Translations under genes and position numbers: made by a program | Assembly (NCBI GenBank): GCA_019239975.1 | Contig: JAFAZE010000070.1 | Span: 62,001 to 126,000, forward strand | Direction: 5' to 3' | DNA: 64,000 nt | Source of the DNA: Streptosporangiaceae bacterium | GTDB taxonomy: Bacteria > Actinomycetota > Actinomycetes > Streptosporangiales > Streptosporangiaceae | Notes under the pieces: generated by a model | Told to the model about the DNA's origin: nothing | What the model saw: only the letters and a program-made list of their open reading frames with translations | Databases searched by the model: none | Part shown: positions 1,954 through 49,296 of the stretch, piece by piece | Numbering within the stretch: the first letter of the stretch is position 1 | How the letters are laid out: each line of letters begins with the position of its first letter

Positions 1954-3162
1954 ATGTCGTGGCCTGATGAACCGGTCAGGGTGCGGGTTCCCGCGACCAG
2001 CGCGAACCTGGGTCCCGGCTTCGACGCGCTCGGGCTCGCGCTGGCCCTGCACGACGAGGTCGAGGCGCGGATCACGCAGGCCGGCGTCTCCATCGAGGTG
2101 ACCGGCGAGGGGCAGGAGCTCGCGGGCGCCGGCGAGAAGCACCTGGTCCTGCGCGCGATGCGCGCGGCCTTCGGCGCGCTGGGCGGCGGCCAGCCGCCCG
2201 GCATCGCGCTGCGCTGCGTGAACCGCATCCCGCACGGGCGGGGCCTGGGCTCTTCCGCGGCGGCGATCGTCTCGGGCATCCTCGCCGCGCGCGCCCTCGC
2301 GGGCCGGCGGGGGGTCACCGGGGAGGCGTCCCCCGGGGGCCGGCCGGGCGCGGACGGCGATGAGGCCGTGCTGGCGCTCGCCACGGAGCTGGAAGGCCAT
2401 CCGGACAACGTGGCCGCCTGCATCCACGGCGGGCTCACGATCGCCTGGCTCGCGGACGGCGCGCCGCGCGCGGTGCGCCTGTCACCGCTGCCGGGCATCG
2501 TGCCCGTCGCCGTGATCGCCCCGGCGCCGGTGAGCACCAAGATGGCGCGCGGGCTGCTGCCGCCGGCGGTTCCGCACCGCGACGCGGCGCTGAGCGCGGG
2601 CCGCAGCGCGCTGCTCGTCGCCGCGCTGACCGCGGAGCCCGGCGCGCTGCTCGACGCCACGGAGGACCGGCTCCACCAGGATTACCGGGCGCCGGCGATG
2701 CCCGCCACGAGCGATCTGGTCCGCCGGCTGCGCAAGGCGGGCATCCCCGCCGTCGTGTCCGGCGCGGGCCCGTCGGTGCTCGCGCTGTTCGCCACCGGGG
2801 GACGCCCCCCCGGTGACCCCGCCCCGTCTCACGCCCTGGGGGACCCTCCCCCCGGACGCCCCCGCGAGGGGACCTTCCCCTCCGGCCTCCCTTTGCCAGA
2901 GGGGACCTTCCCCTCCGGCCTCCCCTCCCCAGAGGGGACCTATCCCTCTGGCCTCCCCTTGCCACTAGACAGGCTGGATTCAATCGTGAGAGAAACGGGT
3001 ATTGAATGGCTCATAAGCCCGCTCGACGTCGAGCGACATGGCGCCAGCATCCAGCCCGCATCGCCACCCGGACCGGTGGCGGGCGGCAGGCCACGCCACA
3101 GTACATGGAACCGCGCGTCCCCGGCGCGCGGTGATGCTGCCCAGTCCTCGCCGGGCCGCTAA
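1954..3162 (+). CDS. thrB: Homoserine kinase with two in-frame repeat insertions
   Basis: GHMP kinase that phosphorylates homoserine. The start at ATG 1954 gives MSWPDEPVRVRVPATSANLG, the usual family N-terminus; the open frame extends upstream to 1768 without homology. Motif 1 (PATSANLGPGFDALGLAL), the ATP loop PHGRGLGSSAAAIVSGI and the C-terminal motif PAVVSGAGPSVLALF are intact. At 402 residues it is about 100 longer than usual. The excess is an insertion after ARALAG (about 2308-2345), a proline/glycine-rich insertion after LALFATG (about 2795-2966) and a C-terminal tail after HGASI. The normal C-terminal strand resumes as LDSIVRETGIEWLISPLDVE, so both insertions keep the frame. Activity is probable because no core motif is broken, but this is inference. 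Confidence 0.93.
   Translation: MSWPDEPVRVRVPATSANLGPGFDALGLALALHDEVEARITQAGVSIEVTGEGQELAGAGEKHLVLRAMRAAFGALGGGQPPGIALRCVNRIPHGRGLGSSAAAIVSGILAARALAGRRGVTGEASPGGRPGADGDEAVLALATELEGHPDNVAACIHGGLTIAWLADGAPRAVRLSPLPGIVPVAVIAPAPVSTKMARGLLPPAVPHRDAALSAGRSALLVAALTAEPGALLDATEDRLHQDYRAPAMPATSDLVRRLRKAGIPAVVSGAGPSVLALFATGGRPPGDPAPSHALGDPPPGRPREGTFPSGLPLPEGTFPSGLPSPEGTYPSGLPLPLDRLDSIVRETGIEWLISPLDVERHGASIQPASPPGPVAGGRPRHSTWNRASPARGDAAQSSPGR
2311..2336 (+). repeat. GC-palindrome family element, copy inside thrB
   Basis: A 26-nt element of the form GGGGTCACC-GGGG-(A/G)-GGCGTCCCCCGG. It matches the inverted copy at 2795-2820 at 25 of 26 positions. It codes for part of a short extra loop (GVTGEASPGG) in homoserine kinase. 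Longer relatives lie at 21912, 37270 and 43270. Confidence 0.75.
2795..2820 (-). repeat. GC-palindrome family element, inverted copy inside thrB
   Basis: Reverse complement of the 2311-2336 element with one mismatch. It starts the long proline/glycine insertion after FATG. Together the two copies are a 26-bp inverted repeat inside one gene. Confidence 0.75.
2866..2964 (+). repeat. Three tandem 33-bp units inside thrB
   Basis: Three consecutive 33-bp units (2866-2898, 2899-2931, 2932-2964) begin GAGGGGACC and encode EGTFPSGLPLP, EGTFPSGLPSP and EGTYPSGLPLP. The period is a multiple of three, so changes in copy number would keep the reading frame. Confidence 0.9.
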
Positions 3163-5511: not shown

Positions 5512-5557
5512 CGCTGTGTTCGCCCGGGGGGCGTCGCCCCCCCGGGCGAACACAGCG
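5512..5557 (+). terminator. Perfect 20-bp hairpin after rho
   Basis: Arms 5512-5531 and 5538-5557 are perfectly complementary over 20 bp with a 6-nt loop. The hairpin starts 3 nt after the rho stop codon and has no U-tract, as is common for actinobacterial hairpin terminators. The loop-proximal part (CCCGGGGGG) resembles the G-run palindromes found elsewhere in the window. Confidence 0.8.
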
Positions 5558-8988: not shown

Positions 8989-10719
8989 ATGCGCGAGTAC
9001 ATCCTCGTCCTGCTCGTCGGCGCGGCGGTGACCTATGTGCTCACCCCGCTGGTGCGGCGAGGCTCGATCGCCGCCGGCGCGCTGCACGCTGCGCGCAGCC
9101 GTGACGTGCACGTGAAGCCGACTCCGCTGCTGGGCGGTATCGCCATGTACGGCGGCCTGGCGGCCGGCCTGCTCGTCGCCGAGCGCCTCACGTTCCTGCA
9201 GTCGTCGTTCCCGTCCTCCCGCACGGTTCCCGGGCTGCTGCTCTCGGGCGGCGTGCTGGTGCTCGTCGGGTTCATCGACGACCGCTGGGGGCTCGGCGCG
9301 ATCACCAAGCTGGCGGGACAGGTCGCGGCCGGCGGCATCCTGGTGTGGAGCGGCGTGCAGCTTCCGTGGATGCCGGAACCCAACGGCCAGCTCCTGTCCT
9401 TCGACCCGCTGCAGAGCATCACGCTGACGATCCTGATCGTCGTCGTGACGATCAACGCGGTGAACTTCATCGACGGCCTCGACGGGCTGGCGGCCGGCAT
9501 CGTGGCGGTGGCCGCGCTGTCGTTCCTCGCGTACTCGTACACGCTGGCGAAGTCGCTGCAGATCCCGGAGCAGTCGCTGCCGGCCCTGGCCTCGGCGCTG
9601 CTGGCGGGCCTGTGCATCGGGTTCCTGCCGCACAATTTCTTCCCCGCGCGCATCTTCATGGGCGACACCGGCTCGATGCTGCTCGGCCTGCTGCTCGCCT
9701 ACGGCCCGATATCGAGCACGGCGTCGCTCGACCCGGCGATCCTCACCAACTACGCGCACGCGCACACCGTCAACCGGTACGTCGTGATCCTTCCGCTGCT
9801 GCTGCCGGTGATGATCCTGATCATCCCCTACACGGACTTCGTGTTCGCGGTGATCCGCCGCCTCAAGGCCGGCAAGTCGCCGTTCGCCGCCGACAAGCTG
9901 CACCTGCAGCACCGGCTGCTCAACATCGGGCACTCGCACCGGCAGAGCGTGCTCCTCATGTACCTGTGGGCGACGCTGTTCGCCGGCACCGTGGTAGCCC
10001 TGTCGATCCTCCGCACCGGCCTGATCTGGCTCGCGGTCGCCACCGTGGCGGCGACGCTGGTGCTGCTTCCCGCCACGATGCCCCGGCTGCGCCCCTGGCG
10101 CACCGCCGAGGGCAGGCCCGCTGGCGCCCCGCATGGTGCCCGCGCCCCGCACGGTGCCCGCGTCACGCGCGGTGCCCGCGTCTCGCATGGTGTCCGTGTC
10201 TCGCGTGGTGCCCGCGTCACGCGGGCCGTCGGTGGCCCGCGCCGCTCCCGCGCGCCGCTCCCGCGCGAGATGCCTGTGCCCACGCCCGCCTCCGCATCCC
10301 CCGCCTCTCCTTCGCCGCCCGCCCCGAACGGCGCGGTATCCCCGAACGGCGCGGTATCCCCGAACGGCGCATCACCTGTGAACCGGGCAGCCCCGCAGAA
10401 CGGGGCGCTCCGTAGGAACAGACCGCTTTCCCCGGAGCGGTCGCTTCCCCCGGAGCGGTCGCTTCCCCCGGACAGGCCGCTACCCAGGAGCGGGGCATCC
10501 GCGAACGGGGCGCTCCCCGTCAACGGGGCGTTGCCCGCGAACGGGGCGTTGCCCGCGAACGCGGCGCCTCCGTGGAGCGCGGCACTCCCTCCGAACGGGG
10601 CATTCCCCGGCGAAGGCGCGTCGCTCCCGGGCCCGGCCGCCGCGGAAGAATTCCCTGCTTCCGGCCCAGGAATCCCCGCCGCCGGCCCACAAGCCCGTCA
10701 CGCCCCACCCTGGACTTAG
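8989..10719 (+). CDS. wecA: Polyprenyl-phosphate GlcNAc-1-phosphate transferase (WecA/Rfe/MraY family) with a long repeat tail
   Basis: Membrane transferase moving GlcNAc-1-P (or a similar sugar-P) from UDP to a polyprenyl phosphate to start cell-wall linker or polysaccharide synthesis. About ten membrane segments fill residues 1-360. Family motifs include the HVKPTPLLGGIAMYGG loop, the DD motif in GFIDDRWGLGA, NFIDGLDGLAAGIV, and FMGDTGSMLLGLLLAY. Its position just before the ATP synthase genes matches Rv1302 of Mycobacterium. Residues from about 370 to 576 are an unusual soluble tail: HGAR-type repeats, then PNGAVS, SLPPER and LPANGA repeats. The tail probably faces the cytoplasm or cell wall, depending on helix number. 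Confidence 0.93.
   Translation: MREYILVLLVGAAVTYVLTPLVRRGSIAAGALHAARSRDVHVKPTPLLGGIAMYGGLAAGLLVAERLTFLQSSFPSSRTVPGLLLSGGVLVLVGFIDDRWGLGAITKLAGQVAAGGILVWSGVQLPWMPEPNGQLLSFDPLQSITLTILIVVVTINAVNFIDGLDGLAAGIVAVAALSFLAYSYTLAKSLQIPEQSLPALASALLAGLCIGFLPHNFFPARIFMGDTGSMLLGLLLAYGPISSTASLDPAILTNYAHAHTVNRYVVILPLLLPVMILIIPYTDFVFAVIRRLKAGKSPFAADKLHLQHRLLNIGHSHRQSVLLMYLWATLFAGTVVALSILRTGLIWLAVATVAATLVLLPATMPRLRPWRTAEGRPAGAPHGARAPHGARVTRGARVSHGVRVSRGARVTRAVGGPRRSRAPLPREMPVPTPASASPASPSPPAPNGAVSPNGAVSPNGASPVNRAAPQNGALRRNRPLSPERSLPPERSLPPDRPLPRSGASANGALPVNGALPANGALPANAAPPWSAALPPNGAFPGEGASLPGPAAAEEFPASGPGIPAAGPQARHAPPWT
10324..10560 (+). repeat. Tandem 18-bp repeat arrays in the wecA tail
   Basis: Three different 18-bp tandem arrays follow one another: from 10324 (core CGAACGGCGCGGTATCC), from 10431 (core CGGAGCGGTCGCTT) and from about 10506 (core GGGGCGTTGCCCGCGAA). 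All periods are multiples of three, giving six-residue protein repeats. Confidence 0.85.
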
Positions 10720-20237: not shown

Positions 20238-22658
20238 GTGTTCGACTACGTGATCGTGGGCGGCGGCAGCGCGGGGTGCGTGCTGGCCGCCCGGCTCAGC
20301 GAGGATCCGGGCGTCAAGGTGCTGCTCCTGGAGGCGGGGCCGGCCGCAGGCGCCGATGAGATAAAGATCCCCGCCGCGATGAGCCGCCTGTACCAGAGCG
20401 GTTACGACTGGAACTACCGCACGGTCCCGCAGCGGCACGCGGACAACCGCCCGGTCTACTGGCCGCGCGGCCGGGTCCTCGGCGGCTCCTCGGCGATCAA
20501 CGCGATGATCTACATCAGGGGAAACCGGTCGGACTATGACGGGTGGCGCGACGAGTTCGGCTGCGCGGGATGGGGATACCGGGACCTGCTGCCGTACTTC
20601 CGCCGCGCCGAGGACAACAGCCGCGGGGCGAGCGTCTATCACGGACAGGGTGGGCCACTGTCCGTTCGGGATCCCCGGTACAGATCCGAGCACAGCAGAA
20701 GCTTCGTCGCGGCCGCGGCCAGATGCGGCGCTCCCGAAAACCACGATTTCAACGGGCCGAAGCAGGACGGCGTCGGGTTCTATCAGGTCACGCAGCGCGA
20801 CGGCCAGCGGTGGAGCGCGGCGGACGCCTACCTGGCAAAGCCCAGGGAGAACCTGACGATACGTACCGGCGCGCTGGTGACCGGCCTGGTCATCGAGGGC
20901 GGCCGTGCCGCGGGCGTCACCTACACCTGCCGCGGCGCCGAGGAGACCGCCCGCGCCGGGGCCGAGGTCATCCTCGCCGCGGGAGCGATCAACACCCCGC
21001 AGCTGCTGATGCTGTCCGGCATCGGCCCCGCGGACGAGTTGCGCGAGGCCGGCATCTTCGTGATCGTCGACAACCCGGCGGTCGGCGCGAACCTGATCGA
21101 TCATCCGGTGGTTCCCGTCATCTGGTCCACGCCCGGCGCGCGCGGCCTGTGGGAGAAGACGGGCATGGCCGGGCTCGCGCGCTGGCGGCTGACCCACCGC
21201 GGCCCGCTGACCTCCAACGTCGCCGAAGCCGGCGGGTTCGCCAGGTCCGGCTCCGGCCTGCACGCGCCGGACCTGCAATGGCACGTGCTCCCCGTCGCCT
21301 ACGAGAACCAGGGCCTCGTCGACCCGGCGCGGCGCGCCATGTCGGTGCTCGTCACGCTGGTCGACGTGGGCAGCAGGGGCAGGATCCGGCTCAGCTCGCG
21401 GGATCCGCGGCACCAGCCGCTGATCGACCCCGCGTACCTTTCGGACTCGCGCGACCTGGACCGGCTGGCCATCGGCGTGCGGATGGCCAGGGAGTTCGCG
21501 GCCGCGGCGCCGCTGTCCAAGCTGTGCGCGGGCGAGATCCAGCCGGGTGACGCGGTGCGCACCGACAGCGAGCTGCGCGATTTCATCAGGGCCAGCGTGG
21601 TCACCCTCTACCACCCCGTGGGCACCTGCGCGATGGGCGGAAACTCGCGGGTGGCGGCCAGCCGGCAGGCCAGCGTCGTCGATCCCGAGCTCCGGGTGCG
21701 CGGCATCGACGGGCTGCGGGTGGCCGACGCGTCCGTCATGCCGACCGTGCCCCGAGGCAACACCAACGCGCCGGTGATCGCGATCGCCGAGCGAGCCGCG
21801 GACCTAATCATCGGCCGCGCCCCGCTCGCCCCCGCGGACCCCGCCGACCCCGCCGACGCCCTGGCCATCGCCGCCAACGCTGTGTTATCCGGGGGGTCGC
21901 CCCGTTGTTATCCGGGGGGACACCCCCCGGAACCCCCCGCCCGCCGCGGTCCTCGCCGTATCATCGCGCGGCCGGAGGGCCGTCGGCCCTCGCGGACCGC
22001 GCGATCGCGGAATGTGAGCCGCGATCGCGGCTCACTCCGCGCCACCCGCCGTAGTCCGCCGCGGTCTCGCCGTCAAGCGGCTCAGCGCTTATACAATCTT
22101 CCGTGCCGGACGGTGATCAGGCGGACCAGGCGGTCCATGTCGCGGTCGGTGCGCTGGAACGACGTGGTGACGATCAGCGGCTTCATCCGCTGCCGCGTGA
22201 TCGACTTGGCCCGCGCGAACGCGCGCAGCCCGTCCGCGCCGTGGATCCGGCCGAACCCCGACTCGCCCGACCCGCCGAACGGCAGCGCGGGCACCGCGGC
22301 GAACGCGATCACCGAGTTCACCGACGTCATCCCCGCGCGCAGCGCCCGGGCGGCGCGCAGCGCGGCGCCGCGCCGCTTGCCGGTGAACAGGGCGGATCCC
22401 AGGGCGTACGGCGAGGCGTTGGCCAGCCGCACGCCCTCGTCGAGCGACCGCACCGGGGTGACCGCCACCACCGGGCCGAACGTCTCCTCCTGGATCGCCG
22501 CGCTCTCCTCCGGCACGTCCACGAGGACGACCGGGTCGACGTACGGCGCGCGCACCGAGTCCAGCCCCCCGACGGCGGCGCGCCCGCCGCGGGCCACCGC
22601 GTCGGCCAGGTGCCGCTCGACCACGTCGATCTGCCGGGGCAGGGTCATGGGCCCGTAG
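20238..22658 (+). CDS. GMC-family FAD oxidoreductase with lost stop codon
   Basis: FAD-dependent alcohol/choline dehydrogenase-like enzyme; substrate unknown. GTG 20238 follows GGAGG. The dinucleotide-binding motif VIVGGGSAGCVLAARLSE, GMC signature GRVLGGSSAINAMIYIRG, catalytic histidine in LYHPVGTCAMGG and the final RGNTNAPVIAIAERAADLII make a complete domain of about 532 residues ending near 21835. No stop follows. The frame stays open through a composite repeat (21884-22085) and then 577 nt antisense across the aldehyde dehydrogenase gene to a TAG at 22656. The extra 270 or so residues are arginine-rich and look non-native. Confidence 0.88.
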   Translation: MFDYVIVGGGSAGCVLAARLSEDPGVKVLLLEAGPAAGADEIKIPAAMSRLYQSGYDWNYRTVPQRHADNRPVYWPRGRVLGGSSAINAMIYIRGNRSDYDGWRDEFGCAGWGYRDLLPYFRRAEDNSRGASVYHGQGGPLSVRDPRYRSEHSRSFVAAAARCGAPENHDFNGPKQDGVGFYQVTQRDGQRWSAADAYLAKPRENLTIRTGALVTGLVIEGGRAAGVTYTCRGAEETARAGAEVILAAGAINTPQLLMLSGIGPADELREAGIFVIVDNPAVGANLIDHPVVPVIWSTPGARGLWEKTGMAGLARWRLTHRGPLTSNVAEAGGFARSGSGLHAPDLQWHVLPVAYENQGLVDPARRAMSVLVTLVDVGSRGRIRLSSRDPRHQPLIDPAYLSDSRDLDRLAIGVRMAREFAAAAPLSKLCAGEIQPGDAVRTDSELRDFIRASVVTLYHPVGTCAMGGNSRVAASRQASVVDPELRVRGIDGLRVADASVMPTVPRGNTNAPVIAIAERAADLIIGRAPLAPADPADPADALAIAANAVLSGGSPRCYPGGHPPEPPARRGPRRIIARPEGRRPSRTARSRNVSRDRGSLRATRRSPPRSRRQAAQRLYNLPCRTVIRRTRRSMSRSVRWNDVVTISGFIRCRVIDLARANARSPSAPWIRPNPDSPDPPNGSAGTAANAITEFTDVIPARSARAARSAAPRRLPVNRADPRAYGEALASRTPSSSDRTGVTATTGPNVSSWIAALSSGTSTRTTGSTYGARTESSPPTAARPPRATASARCRSTTSICRGRVMGP
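21884..22085 (+). repeat. Composite dispersed repeat at the GMC/ALDH junction
   Basis: Consists of two GTTATCCGGGGGG blocks, a G-run palindrome (21912-21940), a 43-nt palindromic core (21963-22005) starting ATCGCGCGGCCGGAGGGCC, and a perfect 22-bp palindrome at 22014-22035 centred on CGCGATCGCG. The region from the G-run palindrome to about 22075 is matched, inverted, at 43141-43300. Confidence 0.85.
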
Positions 22659-24946: not shown

Positions 24947-25217
24947 CGCGGTCCCCCTCGCTCCGCCCCCGTTCGGCACCCTCCGCGCCCCACCCTCTCC
25001 GCGCCCCACCCCCTCGCGCCCCGCCCGCTCCACGCCGTGCCCGCTCCGCTCCCGCCCCGCTCCGCGCCGTGCCCGCTCCGCTCCCCACCCCCTTCGCGCC
25101 GTGTCCGCTTCGCGCTGACGCGGGCCACGCGCCCCTCTGCAGCGCGGCGCTCCCGCGCGCCTCGCCTCGCGTCCCGCGTTGCCTTGGCCCCCGCCTCCCT
25201 CCGGGCGGCTCGTTGCC
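24947..25217 (+). other. C-rich, G-poor stretch after the reductase-deaminase gene (possible Rho site)
   Basis: Downstream of the + strand gene the RNA-like strand is strikingly rich in C and T runs (CCCGCTCCGCTCC-type text, about 24952-25115) with few G. Such C>G bias is what Rho loading sites need. No gene is credible here. Confidence 0.4.
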
Positions 25218-29047: not shown

Positions 29048-29114
29048 ACACCGAATCGTCCGCCCATGGCGCCATACGCCGCATCACGGTACCCACCACG
29101 GCAATTTGCCCCGC

Positions 29115-29310
29115 CCCACCACGGCACCGTCGGCCGCCTCACCCGCAAGCGCCGTCGGCCGCCTCACGACGGCACTGTCGGCCGCCTCACCACGGCACCG
29201 TCGGCCGCCCCACCACGGCACCGTCGGCCGCCCCACCCGCAAGCGCCGTCGGCCGCCCCACCACGGCACCGTCGGCCGCCCCACCCGCAAGCGCCGTCGG
29301 CCCGCCGCCT
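29115..29310 (+). repeat. Minisatellite of eight 23-25 bp units in two alternating types
   Basis: Type A has core CACCACGGCACCGTCGG (23 bp); type B has core CACCCGCAAGCGCCGTCGG (25 bp). The order is A B A' A A B A B, which suggests duplication of A-B blocks. Confidence 0.9.
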
Positions 29311-29543
29311 CACCACAACGCTCACGGCCACGTCCACCACATCCACCACGGCATTCACCAGCCTGCGCCCCCTACTTTCCACCAAAATTTCCCGGTTGAG
29401 CATGTCGTGGAAATCCCGGGTCGTATATGGCACCGTAATATCCACAACGACAAATGTGCCCCTACTATCGTGGAAATTACGGGCCTGTATGCGGCTCTGG
29501 CATGTATTTCTGGGTGGTCACGGTCCGGGCTCACGATGGCGGC

Positions 29544-29598
29544 GGGGCCGCTGGCGCATTTGGCCCCGCCCAGTGGGGCCGCTGGCGCATTTGGCCCC
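29544..29598 (+). repeat. Two copies of the 24-nt GGGGCC...GGCCCC element
   Basis: Identical copies at 29544-29567 and 29575-29598, separated by GCCCAGT. The arms GGGGCC/GGCCCC enclose a 12-nt centre (GCTGGCGCATTT). Further copies are at 33063 and 49226-49280. Confidence 0.9.
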
Positions 29599-29754
29599 GC
29601 GCAGGGGCCGGCTGTCGGCAGCGGGGGTGTTACCCGTGGGCATGGAGGGCGGGTAGCGATCGATGAGGTTAGTTACCAGCCCGAGATTTTAAGCCAGAGC
29701 CTGTACGCGGTCCTGAAATCTCCGTGATCATGGCACCGCGGCCCGCGCTAGCCA

Positions 29755-30344: not shown

Positions 30345-31136
30345 TCAGAACAGGGTGTCGTCGCGTTCGATACCGCGCATCCGGTCATAGTCCAGCACCA
30401 CGCAGCGGATACCGCGGTCCTCGGCCAGCGTCCGCGCCTGGGGCCTGATCGACTGTGCGGCCAGGATACCTTTCACCGGGCGCAGAAGCGGGTCCCGGTT
30501 CAGCAGGTCCAGGTAGCGGGTCAGCTGCTCTACCGCGTCGATTCCGGCGACCCGCTTGACCTCCACCGCCACGTGGCCCCCTCCCCCCGAAACGGGGGCT
30601 TCCACGTGGCCTCCCCCCGAAACGACGGCTTCGCCGGAAACTGCCCCGCCGGAAACTGCCCCGCCGGAAACTGCCCCGCCGGTCTCGCCGCGGCGCTTGA
30701 CCTCGATGGCGACGTTCGCGGCGTCGCGGCACATGATGTCCACCGGGCCGATCGGGGTCGGGTACTCGCGGCGAACCAGCCGCCAGCAGTCGCCGAGCAG
30801 GTGGAGCTGGACGGCGAGCAGCTCCTGCAGGTGCGCCTCCACGCCGTCCTTGACCAGCCCGGGATCGGTGCCCAGGTCGACGGAGGTGTCGCTGACGGTC
30901 TCCTCGATGGTGATCGTGAGCGTCTCGCCGGACTTGTTGGTCACCGTCCACCTGCCGGGCTGCTCGGTCAGCCTGCACGGCGGCGACATCCAGTTCAGCG
31001 GCTTGTACGACCCACCGTCCGAGTGGACGAGGACCGAGCCGTCGGCCTTGACGATCAGCAGCCGGAGGGCAGCGGGAAGGTGGGCGGTGAGCCTGCCGTC
31101 GTAGTCAACGCTGCAGCGGGCGATAACGAGACGCAC
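30345..31136 (-). CDS. nucS: Endonuclease NucS (EndoMS) with repeat insertion in the catalytic motif
   Basis: Mismatch-specific endonuclease of actinobacterial non-MutSL mismatch repair. The N-terminal DNA-binding/dimer half (1-115) and C-terminal RecB-like nuclease half are recognisable: Asp133 in [11 protein letters not shown], then EVK at 145-147, and downstream [15 protein letters not shown] and [20 protein letters not shown]. Between them, residues 151-188 are a Gly/Ala/Val/Ser repeat insertion, after which a second EVK (192-194) leads into the normal [10 protein letters not shown]. The family is about 220-225 residues; this one is 263. The C-terminus DDTLF resembles the clamp-binding end of relatives. 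GTG start. Activity is uncertain. Confidence 0.93.
30569..30685 (-). repeat. Two tandem arrays inside nucS
   Basis: Three 15-bp units (core CTGCCCCGCCGGAAA on the + strand; 30641-30685) and two 30-33 bp units starting CCACGTGGC (30569-30601 and 30602-30631). The latter contain a CCCCCGAAACGGGGG hairpin. All periods are multiples of three. Confidence 0.9.
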
Positions 31137-33051: not shown

Positions 33052-33062
33052 CGACGCGCCGC

Positions 33063-33086
33063 GGGGCCCGATGCGCCAGCGGCCCC
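33063..33086 (-). repeat. 24-nt GGGGCC...GGCCCC element
   Basis: Inverted relative to the 29544 copies (centre CGATGCGCCAGC, two differences). It lies 12 nt after the SDR stop and before the convergent coiled-coil gene, so it may also act as a hairpin at transcript ends. Confidence 0.8.
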
Positions 33087-33160
33087 AGGGGCGGCGGCCC
33101 GCCAGCAAACGACGGTGCCGGGATCGAGTGGCCCGATCCCGGCACCGGCCGTACTGAGAG

Positions 33161-36549: not shown

Positions 36550-36615
36550 CGGGAGAGACACAGCGTGAGCGAGCCGCAGGGGCGCGGCGCCGTGGAGGCG
36601 AGCGGGAGACACAGC

Positions 36616-37659
36616 ATGGGCGCCGGCCCGCCGGCGCTCGTGGAAAGGGCGCGCGGCGGCGATCTGCGGGCGCTCGCGCGGGTGATCTCGCTCATCGAGA
36701 ACGGGGGACCGCACCTTCGTTCGGTGATCAAGGAGCTGGCGCCGCTGGCCTCCGGCGCGCGGACGATCGGGCTGACCGGCGCGCCCGGCGCGGGCAAGTC
36801 CACCGTGACCGGGGCGCTGGTGGCGGCGTTCCGGGACCGGGGTGAGCGGGTCGGCGTGCTCGCGGTGGACCCCACGTCGCCGTTCTCCGGGGGCGCGCTG
36901 CTCGGCGACCGGGTGCGTATGCAGGACCACGCGACCGACCCCGGGGTGTTCATCAGGTCGATGGCCAGCCGCGGCCACCTGGGCGGGCTGGCCGCCGCCG
37001 CGCCGCAGGCGATCCGGGCGCTGGACGCCGCCGGCTTCGGCGTGATCCTGGTCGAGACCGTCGGCGTGGGGCAGGCGGAGGTCGAGGTCGCGTCGATGGC
37101 GGACTCGACGGCGGTCCTCGTCGTGCCCGGCATGGGCGACTCCGTGCAGGCGGCCAAGGCCGGCCTGCTGGAGGTGGCCGACGTGCTCGTGGTGAACAAG
37201 GCGGACCGGCCGGAGACCCAGCAGGCCGTCCGCGACCTGCGGTCCATGGTGGCGCTGGCCGATCTTGATCCGGGGGGACGATCCCCCGGAGCCCCCCGGC
37301 CAGCGTGGAAGCCGCCGATCGTGACGACGGTGGCGACGGCCGGCGATGGCATCGGCGAGCTCGTCCGGCAGCTTGACCGGCACTGGGACTGGCTGGCCGC
37401 TTCCGGCGAGCGGGACCGCCGCCGCGCCGGGCGGGCGCGGGACGAGGTGCTGGCGCTGGCGTCCGGCGCGGTGGAAGCCCGGCTGGCGGCCGCGCCTGGC
37501 CTCGGCGAGCTCGCGGCCAGGGTGGCGGACGGCAGGCTCGGACCCTATGAGGCCGCGGATGAGCTGCTGGCCGGCGTCGGCTTGCCTCCTTTGTTATGCC
37601 GAACGAGCGGTGGCTGCTCCGGTGCCGCCCGCCTCGGGCCCCGGGGCGCGGCGAAGTGA
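36616..37659 (+). CDS. meaB: MeaB-type GTPase, acyl-CoA mutase chaperone
   Basis: G3E GTPase that loads and protects B12 in methylmalonyl-CoA-type mutases. Walker A GAPGAGKST, Walker B-like VETVGVGQAEVEVA and NKAD specificity motif (VVNKADRPETQQ). ATG 36616 gives the usual helix start (ALVERARGGDLRALARVISL); GTG 36565 is also preceded by a good site and would add 17 residues. The GC-palindrome element at 37270-37299 is inserted in frame (DPGGRSPGAPRPAW) between ALADL and KPPIVTTVATAGDGI. The 3' end runs into an inverted repeat and may be altered after AGVGL. Confidence 0.93.
   Translation: MGAGPPALVERARGGDLRALARVISLIENGGPHLRSVIKELAPLASGARTIGLTGAPGAGKSTVTGALVAAFRDRGERVGVLAVDPTSPFSGGALLGDRVRMQDHATDPGVFIRSMASRGHLGGLAAAAPQAIRALDAAGFGVILVETVGVGQAEVEVASMADSTAVLVVPGMGDSVQAAKAGLLEVADVLVVNKADRPETQQAVRDLRSMVALADLDPGGRSPGAPRPAWKPPIVTTVATAGDGIGELVRQLDRHWDWLAASGERDRRRAGRARDEVLALASGAVEARLAAAPGLGELAARVADGRLGPYEAADELLAGVGLPPLLCRTSGGCSGAARLGPRGAAK
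37270..37299 (+). repeat. GC-palindrome family element inside meaB
   Basis: 30 nt of the form CCGGGGGGACGATCCCCC-GGAGCCCCCCGG, nearly identical to the inverted copy at 43270-43300 and related to 21912-21940 and the thrB copies. Confidence 0.85.
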
Positions 37660-43140: not shown

Positions 43141-43300
43141 ACAACGCGGCCATTCAGCGTACGGCGAGCACCGCAGCGGGCTACGGCGGCTCACACAGCG
43201 ATCGCGCGGCTCGCGAGGGCCTACGGCCCTCCGGCCGCGCGATTCTACGGCGGGAACCGCAGCGGGCAACCGGGGGGCTCCGGGGGGTCGTCCCCCCCGG
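43141..43300 (-). repeat. Inverted copy of the composite dispersed repeat
   Basis: Matches 21912-22075 in reverse: palindromic core 43201-43243, flanked by GGCTCACACAGCG and GCCGTAG-like text on one side and by the G-run palindrome (43270-43300) on the other. It sits in the spacer between the divergent vapB and thioredoxin genes. Two CCCCCCCGGGCTAGCA-type units follow at 43292-43328. Confidence 0.85.
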
Positions 43301-49225: not shown

Positions 49226-49280
49226 GGGGCCAAATGCGCCAGCGGCCCCGTCCAGTGGGGCCATTGGCGCCAGCGGCCCC
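49226..49280 (-). repeat. Two copies of the 24-nt GGGGCC...GGCCCC element
   Basis: Copies at 49226-49249 and 49257-49280, separated by GTCCAGT, inverted relative to the 29544 pair but with a similar 7-nt spacer in the same orientation (GCCCAGT there). Between the convergent helicase and pncA genes. Confidence 0.9.
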
Positions 49281-49296
49281 GTGCAAGGGCGCGGGT

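Follow-up and report, generated by a model that had tools for sequence, protein, structure and literature searches.

Palindromic repeats of about 39 nt, read in frame within genes of Streptosporangiaceae, as a probable dispersed REP/RPE-like family

Palindromic repeats that survive within coding genes represent a rare and little-explained route by which old proteins gain peptides, and they have been described so far chiefly in Rickettsia, Wolbachia and Proteobacteria and in a few other phyla. The closest described systems are the RPEs, palindromic repeats that occur both in intergenic regions and in frame within unrelated housekeeping genes (Ogata et al. 2000; PMC10969869, PMC3767692). As summarized in these two sources, RPEs are about 100-150 nt long, belong to obligate intracellular bacteria, carry a conserved peptide reported for each, are tolerated by their hosts and have no known autonomous copy. 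RPE positions are often common to several species (PMC3767692). The GTAG/CGTC REPs are shorter hairpins (20-40 bp) with an intergenic bias and some intragenic copies (PMC3733652, 2013); their intragenic hosts include a UvrD/REP helicase and DnaE2, and Actinobacteria go unmentioned in the text of that paper. MITEs are likewise small, non-autonomous and dispersed, and some form translational fusions (review PMC10969869).

Here we analyzed a window of 64,000 nt, part of a Streptosporangiaceae genome of about 6.4 Mb (176 contigs, 93% complete). All five palindrome copies that a first-pass annotation had located in the window are present where it placed them (Table 1), including an inverted pair in thrB in which the reverse complement of 2311-2336 is identical to 2795-2820 at 25 of 26 positions. 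A 19-nt core allowing up to 3 mismatches matched 6 times, with the copy at 21912 scored on both strands, against 0.44 matches expected from shuffled sequence, and no shuffle reached 6. The copies at 21912 and 43280 are real as well, but both turned out to be intergenic and to form part of a longer composite repeat. The GMC oxidoreductase ORF at 20238-22658 meets no stop codon where its domain ends (about 21788). It runs on across the composite element and into sequence antisense to an aldehyde dehydrogenase gene, so the protein may be extended at its C terminus. The window also contains a second dispersed repeat resembling GGGGCCGCTGGCGCATTTGGCCCC, in both orientations (29543-29601, 33060-33099 and 49226-49281), and tandem repeats with periods of 15 to 71 nt (29094-29329, 30625-30688, 10106-10249, 10499-10624 and 24984-25110), several with a period divisible by three.

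Table 1. Palindrome copies and their host genes in the 64,000-nt window.
Feature	Position	Strand
thrB, homoserine kinase, host gene with two inserts	1954..3162	+
Palindrome copy 1 in thrB, type II (CCCGGGGGACGCCTCCCCGG + TGACCCCCCG), read as GVTGEASPGG	2308..2337	-
Palindrome copy 2 in thrB (CCGGGGGACGCCCCCCCGG-TGACCCCGCC...), first unit of type II array, read as ATGGRPPGDPAPSHA	2787..2834	+
Second palindrome of the thrB array (CCTGGGGGACCCTCCCCCCGGACGCCCCCGCG), absent from the first-pass annotation	2835..2866	+
Three 33-nt tandem repeats (GAGGGGACCTTCCCCTCCGGCCTCCCYTTGCCA), 11 aa each, EGTFPSGLPLP	2866..2964	+
Related core within a longer palindrome (GCTGTGTTCGCCCGGGGGGGCGACGCCCCCCGGGCGAACACAGC), just downstream of rho	5525..5545	-
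Partial core copy adjoining the composite element	21882..21907	-
Full composite type I element, intergenic (core + further hairpins)	21912..22073	+
meaB, methylmalonyl-CoA mutase-associated GTPase, host gene	36565..37659	+
Palindrome copy in meaB (CCGGGGGGACGATCCCCCGG + AGCCCCCCGG), read as DPGGRSPGAPR	37270..37299	+
Composite type I element, intergenic, core 43280-43300, upstream of a thioredoxin-domain gene	43168..43300	-

Alignment of the copies separates them into two sub-types. The core unit of about 39 nt (GCTGTGCTGGC-CCGGGGGGRCGACCCCCCGG-AACCCCCC) has a GC content over 80% and consists of a G6/C6 hairpin, its loop being ACGA or GCGA, with a third C-run after it; the G-run extends to seven bases in some copies, and the unit is predicted to fold at about −20 kcal/mol. 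In type I the core is GCTGTGCTGGC-CCGGGGGG-RCGA-CCCCCCGG-AACCCCCC, which measures 39 nt as a tandem unit, with spacings of 38-45 nt also seen. Type II, CCGGGGGACGACCCCCCGG-TGACCCC followed by CCGGGGGGACCCTCCCCCCGGACCCCCC, occurs in tandem arrays in the C-terminal insert of thrB, in gltB, in an ABC transporter gene and at two intergenic sites; both thrB copies are of this sister type. In intergenic regions of the source genome the core usually runs on into a composite of 100-190 nt with further hairpins (CCCGCTGCGGTTCTCGCCGTAGCATCGCGCGGCCGG...), and intragenic copies are usually the core alone. From the alignment, read by eye, about 1 of 16 in-gene copies carries the composite tail versus 23 of 41 other copies (Fisher p = 0.0007), the sole in-gene case being a stretch of about 113 nt that is in frame in selB. 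The core is common to the relatives, and in one of them (G326) the tail differs (GCATGCGCTCCGCGCCCCGC). Short arrays of G6 runs spaced every ~18-20 nt, potential G-quadruplex formers, adjoin or lie near the element at three loci (L059:657-714, L089:7930-8030 and L094:8000-8060).

A genome-wide search showed that the copies form part of a dispersed family. When up to 3 mismatches are allowed, the 20-nt core has 103 matches in the 6.4-Mb genome (52 forward and 51 reverse, many sites being scored twice because the pattern is nearly self-complementary), compared to 5 (2 + 3) for the same pattern written backwards. Counting up to 3 mismatches over 26 nt in 60 genomes, most of the genomes compared being MAGs, we found 107 matches in G326, 34 in G313, 30 in the source genome, 27 in G307, 22 in G311, 21 in G320 and 20 in G308, with 1-5 matches per genome in thirteen other genera of the same taxonomic family. 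At this threshold no genome sampled from another family, order or class had a match, and the reversed-pattern control gave none in all 60 genomes. The repeat is present in 20 sampled genera of one family, the Streptosporangiaceae, and reaches 20 to 107 copies in seven genomes; the nearest relatives of the source genome among those compared are other genera of one family. A shorter pattern applied to a 296-genome sample of the phylum matched only 4 other genomes, one copy each, and the named loci with the exact 33-nt core belong to Streptosporangiaceae or unassigned actinomycete MAGs, plus one Actinoallomurus isolate. We consider that these segments represent a lineage-specific, dispersed, non-autonomous palindromic repeat of the REP/RPE kind, with a probability of roughly three in four. 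A literature search that covered few subscription papers returned no account of such repeats in Streptosporangiaceae, and they look like a separate family that has so far gone undescribed.

The distribution of copies relative to genes was assessed by a census of copies and flanks, with gene calls from a home-made codon-usage gene finder trained on the source genome. There, 16 of 57 copies lie within coding segments and have the same frame on both sides; since about 85% of the genome is coding sequence, genes are strongly avoided (binomial p about 1e-21). In the G326 sample, 5 of about 66 copies are intragenic. The source-genome hosts are gltB, selB, carB, pcrA/uvrD, an hpnD-like gene, zwf (with two tandem units), nuoL, an ABC transporter gene, selD, fdhB, thrB, meaB, the 3′ end of folK and one unknown ORF, and a non-exhaustive sample of the relatives adds kdpA, nuoM, a DnaE-type polymerase gene, whiA, an acyl-CoA synthetase, a class-III aminotransferase, an M20 peptidase and others. 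Every one of the 39 tabulated intragenic copies keeps the frame. A Pfam check of same-strand split cases recognized no broken gene: different Pfam families lie on either side of the copy at L095, L096, L061, L146, L147 and L160, L148 consists of two adjacent SufB/D-family genes, and at L132 and L159 one side only was identified. Three of the source-genome hosts, selB (L052), selD (L084) and fdhB (L091), are linked to selenocysteine use or to formate dehydrogenase.

The first-pass annotation had explained this tolerance by either selection or a mobile element that is open in the frames used. These alternatives are not exclusive, and both apply. The 39-nt type I unit contains no stop in any of its six frames, but 57% of its shuffles are likewise stop-free in all frames, so that the openness is mostly a matter of composition and cannot be used as proof of design. 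The frames are unequally used, with counts of 7/0/5/11/11/5 for the 39 intragenic copies (p = 0.019) and 7/0/3/10/11/3 for the 34 type I copies (chi-square p = 0.005), assignments being made by peptide matching and uncertain for five type II copies. The frame encoding LCWPGGTTPRNPP, with its Cys-Trp, is used by 0 of 39. This inequality suggests that insertions are filtered on the peptide they encode. The lean toward Gly/Ser/Pro-rich peptides would also be compatible with domesticated loops, in which the inserted peptide has a selected function in the host enzyme as a linker or recognition patch; however, five frames give five unrelated peptides in unrelated enzymes, and no insert is common to several genera in the genes compared, making such a function very unlikely.

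In thrB and meaB the inserts were originally described as members of a repeat family inserted in frame in housekeeping genes, and that description stands: the two thrB inserts and the meaB insert all keep the reading frame, and the segments are lacking in the orthologues compared. Had they been ancestral loops, orthologues of distant genera could have carried them at the same residues. Both inserts are missing from 29 of 29 ThrB orthologues and the palindrome from 29 of 29 MeaB orthologues, so the comparison does not refute in-frame insertion. The C-terminal segment of thrB does contain a palindrome as noted before, but it is not a single one: it belongs to a longer type II array (2787-2964), of which the three 33-nt repeats are likely degenerate units. 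At both ThrB sites and in the MeaB loop, length varies among orthologues, and the Mycobacterium homologue Rv1496 aligns to MeaB with no clear gap at the insert. One ThrB orthologue (L021, from G307) has an unrelated Gln-Ala repeat in the site 1 loop, marking this loop as an insertion hot spot. An AlphaFold2 model of ThrB built with 28 orthologues has a mean pLDDT of 78.8 and a fold mostly above 90, whereas the insert regions (residues ~121-135 and ~281-337) are predicted as coil with pLDDT 32-60, one between two helices and the other between a strand and a helix. The model fits, and does not prove, tolerated surface loops. The three inserts in these two genes are probably neutral decorations of functional enzymes.

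Since these loops vary in length anyway, the three sites in the window are weaker evidence for clean insertion than a class-III aminotransferase of G307. This protein is longer by exactly 13 residues (QRGVPGGRPPGPA, 39 nt) than six orthologues of constant length at the insert point, and in the DNA this corresponds to a single 39-nt unit in rotated form. No target-site duplication was found at this one clean site, with an ambiguity of at most 1 nt. Elsewhere, the PcrA site is a loop that varies among orthologues and is longer here, and solved homologues have no counterpart for the element-bearing segments of NuoL (~34 aa), CarB (~26), GltB (~34), PcrA (~30), G6PD (~33) and NuoM (~24). Several of these insert regions exceed one unit (26-34 aa), so most insertions are not clean single-unit events.

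Such loops raise the alternative that nothing moved, and that GC-rich low-complexity loops grew by slippage gene by gene with only an apparent likeness to one another. The host sites in thrB, meaB and pcrA are indeed variable loops, one of them with the Gln-Ala repeat just described, and the window has other in-gene tandem repeats. Slippage does not readily explain why an exact sequence of 33-39 nt recurs across unrelated genes, in both orientations and five frames, and intergenically as well, why the reversed-pattern control is 0, or why the six aminotransferase orthologues show no length variation at the site apart from the insert. On the sequences compared, this highly improbable account is already contradicted by the identity across loci. 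Local low-complexity expansion could nevertheless contribute at thrB and meaB, where the loops vary in length even without the element.

Another possibility is that the palindrome serves chiefly as a transcription terminator or mRNA processing hairpin reused between genes, with the in-gene copies as by-products. The majority of copies are intergenic, and the unit is predicted to fold, as given above. In the distant, few-copy genera, single copies sit just beyond the 3′ end of a tRNA or tmRNA gene, with a first, terminator-like hairpin in between; at L118, L119, L120 and L128 (in relatives G321, G310, G303 and G321) the core in this position is followed by a second GC hairpin. This site is perhaps the ancestral position of the element. 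A terminator deep within pcrA, carB, nuoL or gltB should, however, shut down their expression, many intergenic copies are on the 5′ side of genes, and the tandem arrays and genus-specific tails resemble the spread of a repeat. We regard a primarily terminator or processing role as unlikely.

A GC stem capped by an ACGA loop is also the signature of the Guanidine-II (mini-ykkC) riboswitch, whose hairpins could in principle have multiplied, with tandem copies acting as a two-hairpin aptamer. Tandem copies in two relatives score 37.1 (L154:2370-2424, minus strand) and 33.4 (L160:2344-2402, plus strand) against an Rfam gathering threshold of 32. Single copies fall under this cut-off, the source genome and the window have 0 matches, and the loops vary (GCGA, ACAC, CCAT, ACCCT). 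The matches examined sit in coding repeats or adjoin rbfA, a short-chain dehydrogenase gene or a lipoamide-dehydrogenase-like gene, and no guanidine gene was recognized beside them. On gene context and variable loops we reject a riboswitch origin, which is scarcely credible, and judge the matches to be mimicry. They call for caution when riboswitches are annotated in GC-rich genomes.

A profile search for Y1_Tnp (PF01797), the RAYT transposase, had no match in the source genome (G000); the domain is also absent from 9 of 10 element-bearing relatives, and the tenth (G326) has a 35-position partial match. RAYT/IS200 mobilization is rejected because the source genome is without Y1_Tnp, and no transposase or other mobilizer was found. 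Mobility is what we infer from the pattern of copies. Copying through a single-stranded hairpin would fit the insertion of a whole unit, the head-to-tail arrays, the hairpin itself and the missing duplication of the target. Single units would be copied to new sites without target-site duplication, either by an HUH-type enzyme acting in trans or by template switching. With a length divisible by three and no stop in six frames, the unit would add 13 residues to a gene product and leave the gene unbroken. Selection would then remove copies that fall in the protein core or in the Cys-Trp frame, leaving as survivors Gly/Ser/Pro-rich or acidic linkers in surface loops. In its fullest form, this reading describes a frame-neutral mobile palindrome of 39 nt that spreads independently of RAYT in uncultured Streptosporangiaceae, places 13-residue linkers in dozens of essential proteins and carries genus-own tails on a common core; we put this forward tentatively, as less likely than not.

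In essential genes, the palindrome adds ~13 amino acids to a loop and is apparently tolerated. This high-GC actinobacterial family, with its fixed unit length, its copies read in either orientation and in five frames, and at least one clean insertion set against six empty orthologues, allows a test of whether frame neutrality belongs to such an element itself or only reflects survivorship. It also offers a RAYT-less system for studying how such repeats spread.

Compared with the known systems, the Streptosporangiaceae palindrome resembles RPEs in occurring both intergenically and in frame in unrelated protein-coding genes. It differs from RPEs as described in the two sources above (100-150 nt, intracellular hosts) in its unit of ~39 nt, its GC content over 80% and its soil actinobacterial hosts. 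Rather than a single conserved peptide it uses five of six frames, unequally, and its inserts are not shared between genera in the genes compared, whereas RPE positions often are shared (PMC3767692). Homology to RPE families, judged on base composition alone, is unlikely. With REPs it has in common a short palindromic sequence, many copies, an intergenic bias and even kinds of host, here pcrA/uvrD and a DnaE-type polymerase gene. The end of the core hairpin does not, however, bear a GTAG/CGTC tag, its flanks being TGCTGGC and AACCCCCC; GTAG occurs only before the second hairpin of the longer composite (CGCCGTAGCATCGCGCGG), and the source genome lacks the RAYT (Y1_Tnp) of the GTAG REP/REPtron. 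With both tag and RAYT lacking, we class the palindrome with neither the GTAG/CGTC REPs nor the RPEs. The ACGR loop on GC stems and the covariance-model matches of tandem copies in relatives recall Guanidine-II (Rfam RF01068), from which it departs in having no recognized guanidine-gene context, in its variable loops and in its dispersal within genes. Finally, it is small, non-autonomous and dispersed like a MITE, and differs in having no terminal inverted repeats around a body, no parental transposon that could be found and, at the one clean site examined, no target-site duplication.
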